This document shows, piece after piece, positions 50,905 through 55,826 of a DNA stretch of 64,000 bases. The position numbers and the translations under genes were made by a program. This DNA is from an uncultured Bacteroides sp. Lineage in GTDB: Bacteria > Bacteroidota > Bacteroidia > Bacteroidales > Bacteroidaceae. A model generated the notes under the pieces. The model ran no database searches. It saw only the letters and a program-made list of their open reading frames with translations, and was not told where the DNA came from. The DNA is taken from assembly GCA_945833835.1 (NCBI GenBank), contig CAMAFR010000003.1, positions 1 to 64,000 on the forward strand. The letters are read 5' to 3'. The stretch's first letter is position 1. The number at the start of each line of letters is the position of its first letter.

Positions 50905-53900
50905 ATGAAAATGACCTACAAGCAAAAACTGTTTGCCGTCTGCGGAGCCACAGCACTGACAACGGCATTGTTGAGTGGCTGTACAGGAAGCGGTGCTTCG
51001 GACGAATCGTACGAACGTTCCTCGTATTACACCCGCGGTATCGGACACTATCCTGGAAATCCGGCAGAAGATTTCTCGCCAGAACTGCAACCAGACCACA
51101 ACACCTATCGGAACATTGCCCTGTTACGCACGGCCTACCAGTCTTCTTCACACGACTATAACCTCGTGGCACAATTGGTGACCGACGGTATTGTGTCGGA
51201 TCAGACTCCCCGGTACCTCACCCTTTCCACTCCCGATGGCGAAAAGCCCCGCCGCGAACGGGAATGGATGATAGACTTCGGTCCTTTCTCGAACAACCTT
51301 GTAGAAGGAGATGACACCTACTTGCAGCTGAACCTGCACAACTACACCAAGAAAGCCGACAAGGTAGTGCTCAAAGGAACGGTAGCCTACGATGGTGCCA
51401 AGGCCACCCAAGGATACACGATTGCCCTGCTGGGTTCGAAAGACGGCCAGCAGTGGACCGAACTGGGCAAACAAAGCGGCAAGGGCTTGCCCGGCAAGGC
51501 AGTTCCCTATATGGTCAATTCAGACCCCAACAAACAGAACGAAGAGGGAAACCTGCCTTCACGCCAGCTGGAAGAGACCATTGCCCTCGGCCAGACCGAC
51601 GACTATACATCCTATAAGCTGCAGCTCACACTGCCCGGTGCTGCCTATTGGCGCATCCATGACCTCGATTTCTTCTGCCACAACGAAGAAGTCGACCTGA
51701 AGCCCTCACAATATTTCAACAGCACCTGGATGAGTGCCGGCAACGGGGAGGAATGGATTTATGTAGACCTCGGCAGCCCGTCCACCTTCGACAAAGTCGT
51801 ACTGCGCTGGACTGCCAAAGCCGAAAAAGGGAAAATCCAGAGTTCCGATGACGCCCAGCAATGGAAAGACCTGGGTGACCTGCCCGGAGGAGCAGACCTG
51901 ACCGATGAAATCAACGTCAATGGCAAAGGCCGCTATGTACGTGTGCTGATGACACAAGCCGGCGACAATGCCCACTATATGTTGAGCGAGCTCGAAGTCA
52001 TGGGCAAAGGCGGGCTCACCGCCCGCCCCGCAGCACAGCCTGCCGGCAAAAACAATCGCGAAATCCGTCTGTCGGGGGGCAACTGGCGGCTGCAACGTGC
52101 CTCGGAAGTGACAGCCACCGGCGAAGAAATCTCTACGGACCACTTTATTCCTGAAGGCTGGATTACCGCCACCGTACCGGGTACTGTCTTGAGCAGCTAC
52201 CGCAACATTGGCGCACTGCCCGACCCCAACTACGCCGACAACCAGCTGCACATCTCCGAATCCTTCTTCTGGAGCAATTTCTGGTACCGCGACGAATTCG
52301 ACATTCCCGCCGACTTCAAGCAGGATCGTCTGTTCCTGAACTTCGACGGCATCAACTGGAAAGCCAATATCTATATGAACGGACAGCGGCTGGGCCGTAT
52401 CGAAGGCGCTTTCAAACGAGGTATCTTCGATGTGACCGACATTGCAGTGGCCGGCAAGAACGTCGTTGCCGTAGAAATCATCAAGAACAGCCATATCGGT
52501 GCCATCAAGGAGAAGAACAAGCAAAGCACCGACTTCAACGGAGGTATTCTCGGAGCTGACAACCCGACCTTCCATGCCACCATCGGGTGGGACTGGATTC
52601 CGACCATGCGCGGACGCAACATCGGTATCTGGAACGATGTGCATCTCACCACAACCGGCAAGGTGACGGTGGCAGACCCCTTTGTACAGAGCGTGCTTCC
52701 TTTGCCCGACACGACCCGTGCCGCCGTCACTACCGGTATCATTGTCAAGAACCATGATGCCGCCGACGTGAAAGGCGTACTGCAAGGACAGCTGGGCGAC
52801 ATCCGCTTCGAACAGCCCGTCGAGCTGAAAGCCGGTGAAGAAAAGACCGTCACCTTTGACCCCGCCCACTTTGCCCAACTGAACATCCAGCAACCCAAGC
52901 TGTGGTGGCCGGTAGGTTACGGAGCTCCTCATCTGTATGATGCCAACTTTACGTTCAAGATAGCAGACAAGGTGTCGGACCAGCGTGATTTCAAGGCAGG
53001 TATCCGCCAAATGACCTTCAATGAAAACAACCACATCCTCAACCTGTACATCAACGGACGTCGCTTCATCGGCCGTGGTGGCAACTGGGGATTCAGCGAA
53101 TCGAACCTGAACTACCGCGGACGGGAATACGAAACCGCTGTCGCCTATCATGCCGATATGCACCTCACCATGATGCGTAACTGGGTGGGTATGATTGGTG
53201 ATGAAGAGCTTTATGAGGCCTGCGACCGTCACGGTGTCATGATCTGGCAGGACTTCTGGCTGGCCAACCCGTGCGACGGACCCGACCCCTACTATCCCGA
53301 AATGTTCATTGACAATGCGGAAGACTATGTGAAGCGCATCCGCAGCCATGCCTCCATCGGTCTGTATTGCGGACGCAACGAAGGATTCCCGCCCGAAAAG
53401 ATAGACAAAGCCCTCCGGCGCATTGTCAAAGAACAGCACGGTGACCTGCACTACATCCCCAGCTCAGCCGATGACGTAGTGAGCGGACACGGTCCCTACC
53501 GCATGTTGCCTGCCAAGACCTACTTCACGATGGAAACCGGCAACGACAAGTTCCATAGCGAACGGGGTATGCCCAACGTGCTGACGTATGAAAGTTTCCA
53601 GCGTACCTTCTCGCCCGCAGGACTTTGGCCACAAGACCACGAATGGGGTATGCATGACTACACCTTGCAAGGCGCACAGGGTGCCACCTCCTTCAATGAA
53701 ATCATCGCCACCGGCTACGGACAGCCGCAGAACGTACGCGAGTTTGCCGAACTGGCCCAGTGGGTGAATTACGACGGACACCGCAGTATGTTCGAATCGC
53801 GCAGCAAAAACCGTATGGGACTCCTCATGTGGATGAGCCATCCCTGCTGGCCGTCAATGGTATGGCAGACCTACGACTACTATTTCGAGCCTACCGCCGC

Positions 53901-54519
53901 CTATTTCGGCATCAAGAAGGCCTCTGAGCCGCTCCACATCCAATGGAATCCCGCCAACGAGGAAATCGAAGTAGTCAACTACAGTGCCGGTACCCATCAA
54001 GGACTGACCGCCAAAGTACAGTTGCTCAACATGGACGGAAGTCTGGCCTGGGAAAAGGAAACAACAGTGGACAGCCAGGAAGACACGACCGTCAAATGCA
54101 TCCGGATGGAATATCCGGCCGCTATCAGCGAAGTACATTTCCTGAAGCTGACCTTGAAAGAGGGTGACCGACTGGTGTCCGACAATTTCTATCACCGTAC
54201 ACTGAAAGAAAACAACTACCAAGCCCTGAAGCAACTGCCGAAAGTGAAACTGAATGTCGACTTCCAGAGCCATCAGGAGGCCAACGGCGATTGGACGGCT
54301 ACGGCGGTGGTAGAAAACCCCACACAGACGCCTGCCCTGCTCATCCGTCTGAATGTGACGGGCAACAAGGACGGCCTGCAAATCCTCCCGATGTTCTACG
54401 GAGACAACTATTTCTCACTCCTGCCGGGTGAAAAGAAGACCGTCAGCCTCCGCTGGAAAGACGTGGATACCCGAGGCAACGCTCCGCAACTGACCGTCAG
54501 CGGATACAACGCCGAATGA
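50905..54519 (+). CDS. GH2 family glycoside hydrolase (exo-beta-glucosaminidase/beta-mannosidase-like) lipoprotein with N-terminal F5/8-type region
   Basis: Lipobox 'LLSGC'; 'FWSNFWYRDEFDIP', 'LNFDGINWKANIYMNGQRLGRIEGAF', 'MRNWVGMIGDEELYEACDRHGVMIWQDFWLAN', 'GLYCGRNEG'. Confidence 0.93.
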   Translation: MKMTYKQKLFAVCGATALTTALLSGCTGSGASDESYERSSYYTRGIGHYPGNPAEDFSPELQPDHNTYRNIALLRTAYQSSSHDYNLVAQLVTDGIVSDQTPRYLTLSTPDGEKPRREREWMIDFGPFSNNLVEGDDTYLQLNLHNYTKKADKVVLKGTVAYDGAKATQGYTIALLGSKDGQQWTELGKQSGKGLPGKAVPYMVNSDPNKQNEEGNLPSRQLEETIALGQTDDYTSYKLQLTLPGAAYWRIHDLDFFCHNEEVDLKPSQYFNSTWMSAGNGEEWIYVDLGSPSTFDKVVLRWTAKAEKGKIQSSDDAQQWKDLGDLPGGADLTDEINVNGKGRYVRVLMTQAGDNAHYMLSELEVMGKGGLTARPAAQPAGKNNREIRLSGGNWRLQRASEVTATGEEISTDHFIPEGWITATVPGTVLSSYRNIGALPDPNYADNQLHISESFFWSNFWYRDEFDIPADFKQDRLFLNFDGINWKANIYMNGQRLGRIEGAFKRGIFDVTDIAVAGKNVVAVEIIKNSHIGAIKEKNKQSTDFNGGILGADNPTFHATIGWDWIPTMRGRNIGIWNDVHLTTTGKVTVADPFVQSVLPLPDTTRAAVTTGIIVKNHDAADVKGVLQGQLGDIRFEQPVELKAGEEKTVTFDPAHFAQLNIQQPKLWWPVGYGAPHLYDANFTFKIADKVSDQRDFKAGIRQMTFNENNHILNLYINGRRFIGRGGNWGFSESNLNYRGREYETAVAYHADMHLTMMRNWVGMIGDEELYEACDRHGVMIWQDFWLANPCDGPDPYYPEMFIDNAEDYVKRIRSHASIGLYCGRNEGFPPEKIDKALRRIVKEQHGDLHYIPSSADDVVSGHGPYRMLPAKTYFTMETGNDKFHSERGMPNVLTYESFQRTFSPAGLWPQDHEWGMHDYTLQGAQGATSFNEIIATGYGQPQNVREFAELAQWVNYDGHRSMFESRSKNRMGLLMWMSHPCWPSMVWQTYDYYFEPTAAYFGIKKASEPLHIQWNPANEEIEVVNYSAGTHQGLTAKVQLLNMDGSLAWEKETTVDSQEDTTVKCIRMEYPAAISEVHFLKLTLKEGDRLVSDNFYHRTLKENNYQALKQLPKVKLNVDFQSHQEANGDWTATAVVENPTQTPALLIRLNVTGNKDGLQILPMFYGDNYFSLLPGEKKTVSLRWKDVDTRGNAPQLTVSGYNAE

Positions 54520-54572
54520 CCGACGGACATCTCAGCTTCAAAACGGAGTGATTCCCATTGAGGCATAAGCCA

Positions 54573-54620
54573 GGAGAGAGTGTGTCAAACCATCAGGAAT
54601 GACACACCCTCTCCTTCTTT
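54573..54620 (+). terminator. Rho-independent terminator after GH2
   Basis: GGAGAGAGTGTGTCA/TGACACACCCTCTCC (54573-54587/54600-54614), one mismatch, followed by TTCTTTT. Confidence 0.75.
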
Positions 54621-54856
54621 TGATTTCCCCCTAAGAATGTCCCAATACGGTAAGACAGGAAATCGGAAGATAGAAATTTTCATACATCAGCTCCTACTGA
54701 CAACCGCTATGGTTTGCAGATACAGATGGAATAGCTGTCGTTCATCGGATGCTGACAGCGGGCCCGACACTCCCAATCGTTCATTCCCGTTCAACAACCG
54801 TTCGGAAAAAGCAGTCATCCACCCACTTTTCACACGCTCTCGTTCCTACCTTCTCA

Positions 54857-54994
54857 GGACGTACGTCCAGAGGGGTTTAGTACGTACGGGCATAGCTCCT
54901 CTGGACGTACGGGCATGGCACCTTTGAACGTACGTCTATAGACCCTTTGGACGTACATCTATAGTTCACCTGGACGTACGCCGTGAGAGAGGCA
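54857..54994. repeat. Six tandem 23-bp units with GNACGTAC core
   Basis: Units start at 54857, 54880, 54903, 54926, 54949 and 54972 (exact 23-bp period): GGACGTACG, GTACGTACG, GGACGTACG, GAACGTACG, GGACGTACA, GGACGTACG followed by partly conserved 14-nt spacers. Confidence 0.9.
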
Positions 54995-55115
54995 TGTTTT
55001 TCGTGAATTTTATCAGACACTTTCTGCTTGATGCGCTGCACCAGCAGACCGTCTTGTCAAATGCTGGAATGGGCGGATGAGGGAACGAAGCTATGAGCGT
55101 GAAGGCTCCCCAGCG

Positions 55116-55826
55116 TCAGGAATGGTGGGCAATGTGGTTGGCGATAATGCTGAATTTGGGTGCCTTCTGATAAGCACGGGCATTGAACCTGTACAAGGCC
55201 GCTCCCCGCTTCGAGGTTTTCTTATCCACTCTTCCTGTCTTTTCTACAAACCCCATTTCGGCCACCTTCTTTCGGAAATTGCGCTTATCGAGTACTTCGC
55301 CGTAAACGGCTTCATACAGCTGCTGCAACTGGGTCAGTGTGAACATCTTGGGCAACAATTGGAAACCCACCGGCTCAGTCGCTGCTTTCCGCTTCAACAA
55401 TTCGCGCGCCTGACACACCATGTCCGCATGGTCAAAAATCAACGGGGGCACGTCCTTCATCTTTACCCAGCAGGCATGGTGCGCCTGTATCAGTGCGGTG
55501 TCATTGTCACGGATATTCATCAACGCATAATAGGCGATAGATATCACCCTCGCTCCCGGATCACGCTCCACAGCCGTATAGGCCTTGACCTGCTCCATAT
55601 AGACCTTGTCCAACCCGGTCAATTCCTTCAGTACCCGCCGGGCCGCCTCATCAGCACTCTCCTCCTCCTGCACAAAACCTCCCATCAGTGACCATTCACC
55701 CTTGGCCGGTTCTATCATCCGCTTCACCAACAACAGGTGCAGCTCTGCCTCGGCAAAACCGAAAATGATGCAATCCACCGCCACATATATCTTGGCAGTG
55801 CCTATGTAATAATCTTTACCAGACAT
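55116..55826 (-). CDS. NUDIX domain protein with C-terminal winged-helix (NrtR/AraR-like) regulator
   Basis: 'GEWSLMGGFVQEEESADEAARRVLKELTGL' (Nudix box-like) and C-terminal 'LYEAVYGEVLDKRNFRKKVAEMGFVEKTG'. Start at MSGKDYYIG. Confidence 0.88.
   Translation of the reverse strand: MSGKDYYIGTAKIYVAVDCIIFGFAEAELHLLLVKRMIEPAKGEWSLMGGFVQEEESADEAARRVLKELTGLDKVYMEQVKAYTAVERDPGARVISIAYYALMNIRDNDTALIQAHHACWVKMKDVPPLIFDHADMVCQARELLKRKAATEPVGFQLLPKMFTLTQLQQLYEAVYGEVLDKRNFRKKVAEMGFVEKTGRVDKKTSKRGAALYRFNARAYQKAPKFSIIANHIAHHS

Follow-up and report, generated by a model that had tools for sequence, protein, structure and literature searches.

A dispersed intergenic repeat element with 23-bp-phased CGTACG cores in some gut Bacteroidales

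Introduction

The genome of an uncultured Bacteroides sp. carries, between two genes, a short tandem array in which a palindromic core recurs every 23 bp. The question raised by this locus is whether the array is a product of replication slippage, an operator of the neighbouring regulator, a structured RNA, or a row of protein-binding sites that belongs to something larger. The stretch of DNA that was analysed comprises 64,000 nucleotides of contig CAMAFR010000003.1 and is referred to here as the window. The window array forms part of a non-coding element of ~200 bp, scattered in about nine copies over this genome, that is intergenic in some gut Bacteroidales. An earlier note on this DNA had described the array; the leader that precedes it, the dispersed multi-copy element of which both are part, and a wider occurrence of arrays with a period of 22-23 bp go beyond that note.

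The array in the window

The array occupies positions 54857-54994 of the forward strand. As the earlier note had stated, it consists of six units with an exact period of 23 bp, which start at 54857, 54880, 54903, 54926, 54949, and 54972 by direct reading of the sequence, and TRF reports a period of 23 over the same interval; motif counts and the alignment of copies also define this array of units with CGTAC(G/A) cores. The CGTACG cores are located at 54860-54865, 54883-54888, 54906-54911, 54929-54934, and 54975-54980, and the core of unit 5 is CGTACA (54952-54957). The motif GNACGTACR was observed nine times in the window compared to an expectation of 2.2, with seven of the nine occurrences inside the array. 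It had been suggested that the cores lie near the same face of the DNA, but with 10.5 bp per turn a step of 23 bp amounts to ~2.19 turns; each core is rotated by ~69 degrees relative to the one before it, and the cores do not share one face.

The array was correctly placed between convergent 3' ends. On the forward strand, positions 50905-54519 encode a GH2-type glycoside hydrolase with an exo-beta-glucosaminidase Ig domain (ORF list and domain search), and on the reverse strand positions 55116-55826 encode a NUDIX domain plus an NrtR/AraR-type winged helix regulator. A 115-aa ORF mechanically overlaps the array and has no support as a gene, in keeping with the earlier view that no convincing ORF is present. 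The interval that separates the GH2 gene from the element contains a strong, terminator-like hairpin with the T-rich sequence TCTTTTGATTT behind it (54572-54615, forward strand; RNA fold energy of -30.7 kcal/mol); the hairpin was overlooked by a consensus terminator scan because its loop is long.

A role for the neighbouring NUDIX/winged-helix protein had also been proposed. Adjacency is the one observation that would make the array a local operator of this NUDIX/NrtR-type regulator; the array adjoins the NUDIX gene at its 3' end and the other copies of the element are beside unrelated genes, and this explanation is extremely improbable. The regulator was likewise not supported as a binding partner: where neighbours were seen at the other copies, they were different genes. 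A CRISPR array was also rejected: CRISPR arrays have a constant repeat of ~25-40 nt and unique spacers of similar length, whereas the core here is 6-9 nt and the spacers are common to several loci.

Copies and anatomy of the element

The earlier note had proposed to look for the pattern in the rest of this genome and in close relatives, and copies were found in both, which argues against a simple local minisatellite. In the genome itself (2.57 Mb, 95 contigs), contigs C1, C3 (to which the window belongs), C10, C29, C33, C44, C61, and C66 each contain one full copy, eight in all; C94 has a variant copy and C46 a weak partial one. Two cores in a 23-bp register occur 40 times genome-wide (both strands) versus 0 times for a reversed control pattern.

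Alignment of the eight full copies determined that each is composed of a ~75-nt leader followed by about five units with position-specific spacers; the window copy has six units. The limits given earlier for the feature are thus correct for the array and too narrow for the element, which reaches upstream into the leader at 54778-54856 (forward strand). The leader is kept in all eight copies, can be made out in the related copies that other genomes carry, and contains CGTTC-type boxes at 54778, 54788, 54799, and 54841, the first three being 10-11 bp apart. The spacer between units 3 and 4 (54912-54928, forward strand) is GGCATGGCACCTTTGAA in the window copy and mostly TCCATAGACCCTTTGAA elsewhere in the spacer table; of all spacers in the family it is the best conserved, but the CTTTGAACGTAC at its end served to anchor the copies. 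The sequence CCTTTGAACGTACG is found at the unit 3/4 junction in 8/8 full copies, which were anchored at that point. A possible tail, TTCGTGAATTTTATCAGACA (55000-55019, forward strand), is common only to the window copy and the copy on C29 (L032 versus L034), and a longer tail is present in the copies of genome G077. The window copy is among the more diverged of the copies in its genome. In the alignment, the copies of this genome showed no terminal inverted repeats.

These features bear on whether the array is an ordinary minisatellite that arose through replication slippage. An exact period is what slippage would produce, but the units are position-specific, are common to dispersed copies and are not homogenised within the array. 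A dispersed family contradicts a slippage origin, which we consider very unlikely, and the earlier judgement that this is not a recent slippage duplication holds.

One of the full copies is rearranged. In the copy on C1 (L031, C1:21627-21707) the inner two-unit block is inverted with respect to the other seven full copies, which can be described as a single event. When the block between the cores of units 1 and 3 was compared with the other copies, the inverted orientation was the better fit in 7/7 comparisons, with 2-14 mismatches in 40 positions versus 11-18 in direct orientation; among the remaining copy pairs the inverted orientation was better in 0/21. The inversion ends inside the palindromic CGTACG cores, a position suggestive of template switching or recombination there.

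Conservation of the cores

The claim that the core is kept while the spacers drift could be quantified and is correct. Pairwise divergence among the copies in this genome is 2.7% in the cores (all five) and 29% in the spacers; in the leader it is 24% in the GTTCA boxes and 36% in the remaining sequence. In units 1-4 of the eight copies, 32/32 CGTACG cores are intact, and the core of unit 5 is intact in three of the eight. Because the copies were anchored at the unit 3/4 junction, units 1 and 2 (16/16 intact) provide the cleanest evidence. Copies in other genomes were picked through the core motif, so core conservation there is inflated and is not independent evidence; the figure for this genome is less affected. 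Whole-element searches turned up no copy in which the leader was intact but the cores had been lost. Given 32/32 intact cores against 29% spacer divergence, the cores look selected in the copies of this genome. With a core that is nearly unchanged while the rest drifts, the array is probably a row of protein-binding sites, on a repeat that is mobile or spreads horizontally, and not an ordinary slippage repeat.

Genomic placement and neighbouring genes

The copies are intergenic and are enriched between converging genes. Among the copies for which both neighbours were called, 10 of 19 are in convergent gaps versus 48 of 365 background gaps (13%), where genes were called with a purpose-written codon-usage gene caller and background gaps were at least 150 bp. 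The associated P is about 5e-5, or 4e-4 when length-weighted. In the genome studied here, 5/6 copies are in convergent gaps.

Divergent gaps hold four copies, three of them at a locus that is common to four genomes, this one included (L035 in this genome, L042, L045, and L068). Here the array is flanked by an HU-HIG gene on one side and a small gene on the other. The small protein has an IHGGxNQIxPNATHAEQH motif, and at least at L035 and L068 a second downstream protein has a similar N-terminal motif plus a VILGAGADA stretch (nucleotide-binding-like). By eye, this second protein appears SIR2-like; it has no Pfam match. No recurrent neighbour gene was found outside this HU-HIG / SIR2-like locus, and apart from one conserved locus the copies in other genomes have unrelated flanks.

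HU-HIG was considered as the cognate protein and rejected: it adjoins the arrays at the four loci but an orthologue is missing from most genomes with arrays, and none was found in G079-G082, G084, G085, G087, and G088. RAYT (Y1_Tnp, PF01797) was rejected as a mobiliser because it is over the cut-off in only some of the array genomes; in the genome studied here PF01797 is on C57, a contig that yielded no array.

RNA structure

The earlier note had left two options, a protein-binding array or a structured or variable minisatellite. An element that acts at the RNA level would be a transcribed array of small hairpins, a bidirectional terminator or a 3'-end stabiliser between convergent genes. The convergent placement would suit such a function, and most single copies fold better than mononucleotide shuffles, but they fold well because of the palindromes. 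There is no match in Rfam, and the RNAalifold consensus has nearly no covariation, with only the palindromes pairing. The flanks of the cores do not covary in the copies of this genome and do so in other genomes at the first position only. Moreover, a terminator-like hairpin already precedes the window array and some copies are in divergent promoter regions. A structured RNA family was rejected for want of an Rfam match and a covarying consensus fold, and an RNA-level role in general is unlikely. Multi-site protein binding, the other option, is plausible.

Distribution in other genomes

A pattern of two cores in register, searched against 85,462 species genomes, returned 70 hits. The Bacteroidales hits (Prevotella-like genomes, genomes labelled 'Mediterranea', unnamed MAGs, and Prevotella cerevisiae) have the same or a related architecture, and the module of leader plus units is recognisable across genera. 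Many of the remaining hits are in Streptomyces and other Actinobacteria and were set aside as probable chance matches within GC-rich DNA. The distribution is patchy, as the element is absent from nearly all relatives: among 61 congeneric genomes it is otherwise found only in G013, and three exact cores in register, a strict pattern that misses degenerate arrays, occur in 2/399 genomes of the family and 1/393 of the order, with the genome studied here counted. No match was found in the viral contigs, phages, and plasmids searched.

Evidence of movement was looked for at the copies themselves. An empty-site comparison with 60 congeners, in which the query covered four of the seven loci, found the flanking genes but no synteny, and neither a target-site duplication nor a clean empty site was found. 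As the copies in this genome also have no terminal inverted repeats, it is their distribution, by itself, that suggests mobility.

The main rival explanation is that the element is a purely selfish or decaying MITE-like repeat, with cores that matter only for transposition and no role for the host. The patchy distribution and the lack of coding sequence fit this, as do some of the copies in G077, which are embedded in a MITE that has terminal inverted repeats of 27 bp (L101:1386-1934 and L062; repeats TGCAAAGTAACGGGTAACAGGTAACGC in L101). The array is present in some copies of this MITE and apparently absent from others. Two copies in G078 also carry 22-30 bp that resemble the 5' end of the gene adjoining a third copy. 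However, copies that are ~29% diverged in their spacers keep intact cores, which are seemingly maintained in resident copies, and the copies in the genome studied here have no terminal inverted repeats. A purely selfish origin is possible, and we regard it as doubtful.

Comparison with known systems

A literature search with the core sequence returned no paper on bacteria. Judged by architecture, the nearest known kind of element would be the BrickBuilt MITE of Porphyromonas gingivalis. BrickBuilt has a tandem 23-nt unit with an adjoining leader and 19 dispersed copies that are always intergenic and non-coding (Klein et al. 2015, PMC4596501). It is bounded by IS5-type terminal inverted repeats (GAGACCTTTGCA) that match ISPg elements, has 4-nt target duplications, and contains 1 to 22.8 repeats (PMC4596501). 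Both elements are from Bacteroidales and share a 23-nt tandem unit without extra spacers, a leader, dispersed intergenic copies and no coding capacity. They differ in that the window element has no such terminal inverted repeats (the MITE that encloses copies in G077 has a different one of 27 bp), its number of units is nearly fixed at about five and its units differ by position. BrickBuilt has a leader and a tail; here the leader is clear in eight copies of the genome, a possible tail is common to two of them, and the G077 copies have a longer one.

REP/BIME sequences of E. coli and Pseudomonas are also dispersed intergenic palindromic repeats in small arrays, but they number more than 100 copies versus about nine here, the presence of RAYT is inconsistent here, and the unit and spacing are different. 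Iteron or multi-operator arrays for cooperative dimers combine short palindromic cores, a spacing of about two turns and drifting spacers. Unlike these, the window element is dispersed on the chromosome and no neighbouring replication or regulator gene is common to its copies.

The explanation that we favour, with a probability of roughly 0.55, is that some Bacteroidales have a non-coding repeat element, dispersed between genes, that would spread within and between genomes and that offers, in its array, a platform for multi-site DNA binding. The CGTACG palindromes would be bound by a dimeric protein, with adjacent dimers, possibly binding cooperatively, spaced at 23 bp along the DNA. The binder could be a factor of the host that organises DNA or a factor that mobilises the element.

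A wider pattern of 22-23-bp arrays

Arrays with this spacing are not limited to the CGTACG family. In ~2.26 Mb, TRF found 38 arrays with a period of 22 or 23 among 59 with periods of 16-30, a proportion for which a uniform null is crude and to which G123, sampled for having such arrays, contributes 15 of the 38. The samples (L189-L308) were drawn from the genome studied here (G000), G011, G007, G017, G123, 20 genomes of the family, and 20 of the order. Intergenic tandem repeats in them show a peak of period length at 22 and 23 bp. In five examined genomes, 30/30 arrays of period 22 or 23 are outside called genes. The units are unrelated in sequence and many contain palindromes such as AAACCGTACGGTTT, AAGGTTAATAACCTT, and ACAAGCTTGT. 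No such arrays were found in 200 kb of E. coli; the actinobacterial loci could not be used as a control because they had been selected for the 23-bp pattern.

G123, the only other genome of the family that matches the three-core pattern, has a different 23-bp array in several intergenic copies, with the core GTCG[TC][AG]CGAC and other spacers. In three of its arrays (L182, L183, and L185), whose core is related to this sequence, the spacers are largely homogenised within an array and differ between arrays, and these arrays adjoin terminator-like hairpins. The genome studied here also has an unrelated 23-bp array on C16 (L264:10722-10809) with 3.8 copies of the unit CGAAAGGTTAATAACCTTCAAGC and the palindrome AAGGTTAATAACCTT.

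A more tentative proposal, which is possible and which we hold with less than even confidence, is that a phasing of 22-23 bp marks a general class of intergenic arrays in Bacteroidales, whose cores are often palindromic but unrelated and in which the spacing and not the sequence is conserved. A DNA-binding or recombining factor would read the spacing and either tolerate many cores or co-evolve with them. The element in the window would then represent a single multi-copy family within this class, and the inverted block on C1 would have arisen from recombination or template switching at the cores.

Conclusions

What appeared as a local curiosity becomes a family whose members can be counted and whose anatomy is clear. 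If the 22-23-bp class is confirmed, the species-specific BrickBuilt would join a broader class of elements, and a period of 22-23 bp that is confirmed genome-wide would point to an unrecognised DNA-binding or recombination activity that is common in gut Bacteroidales.
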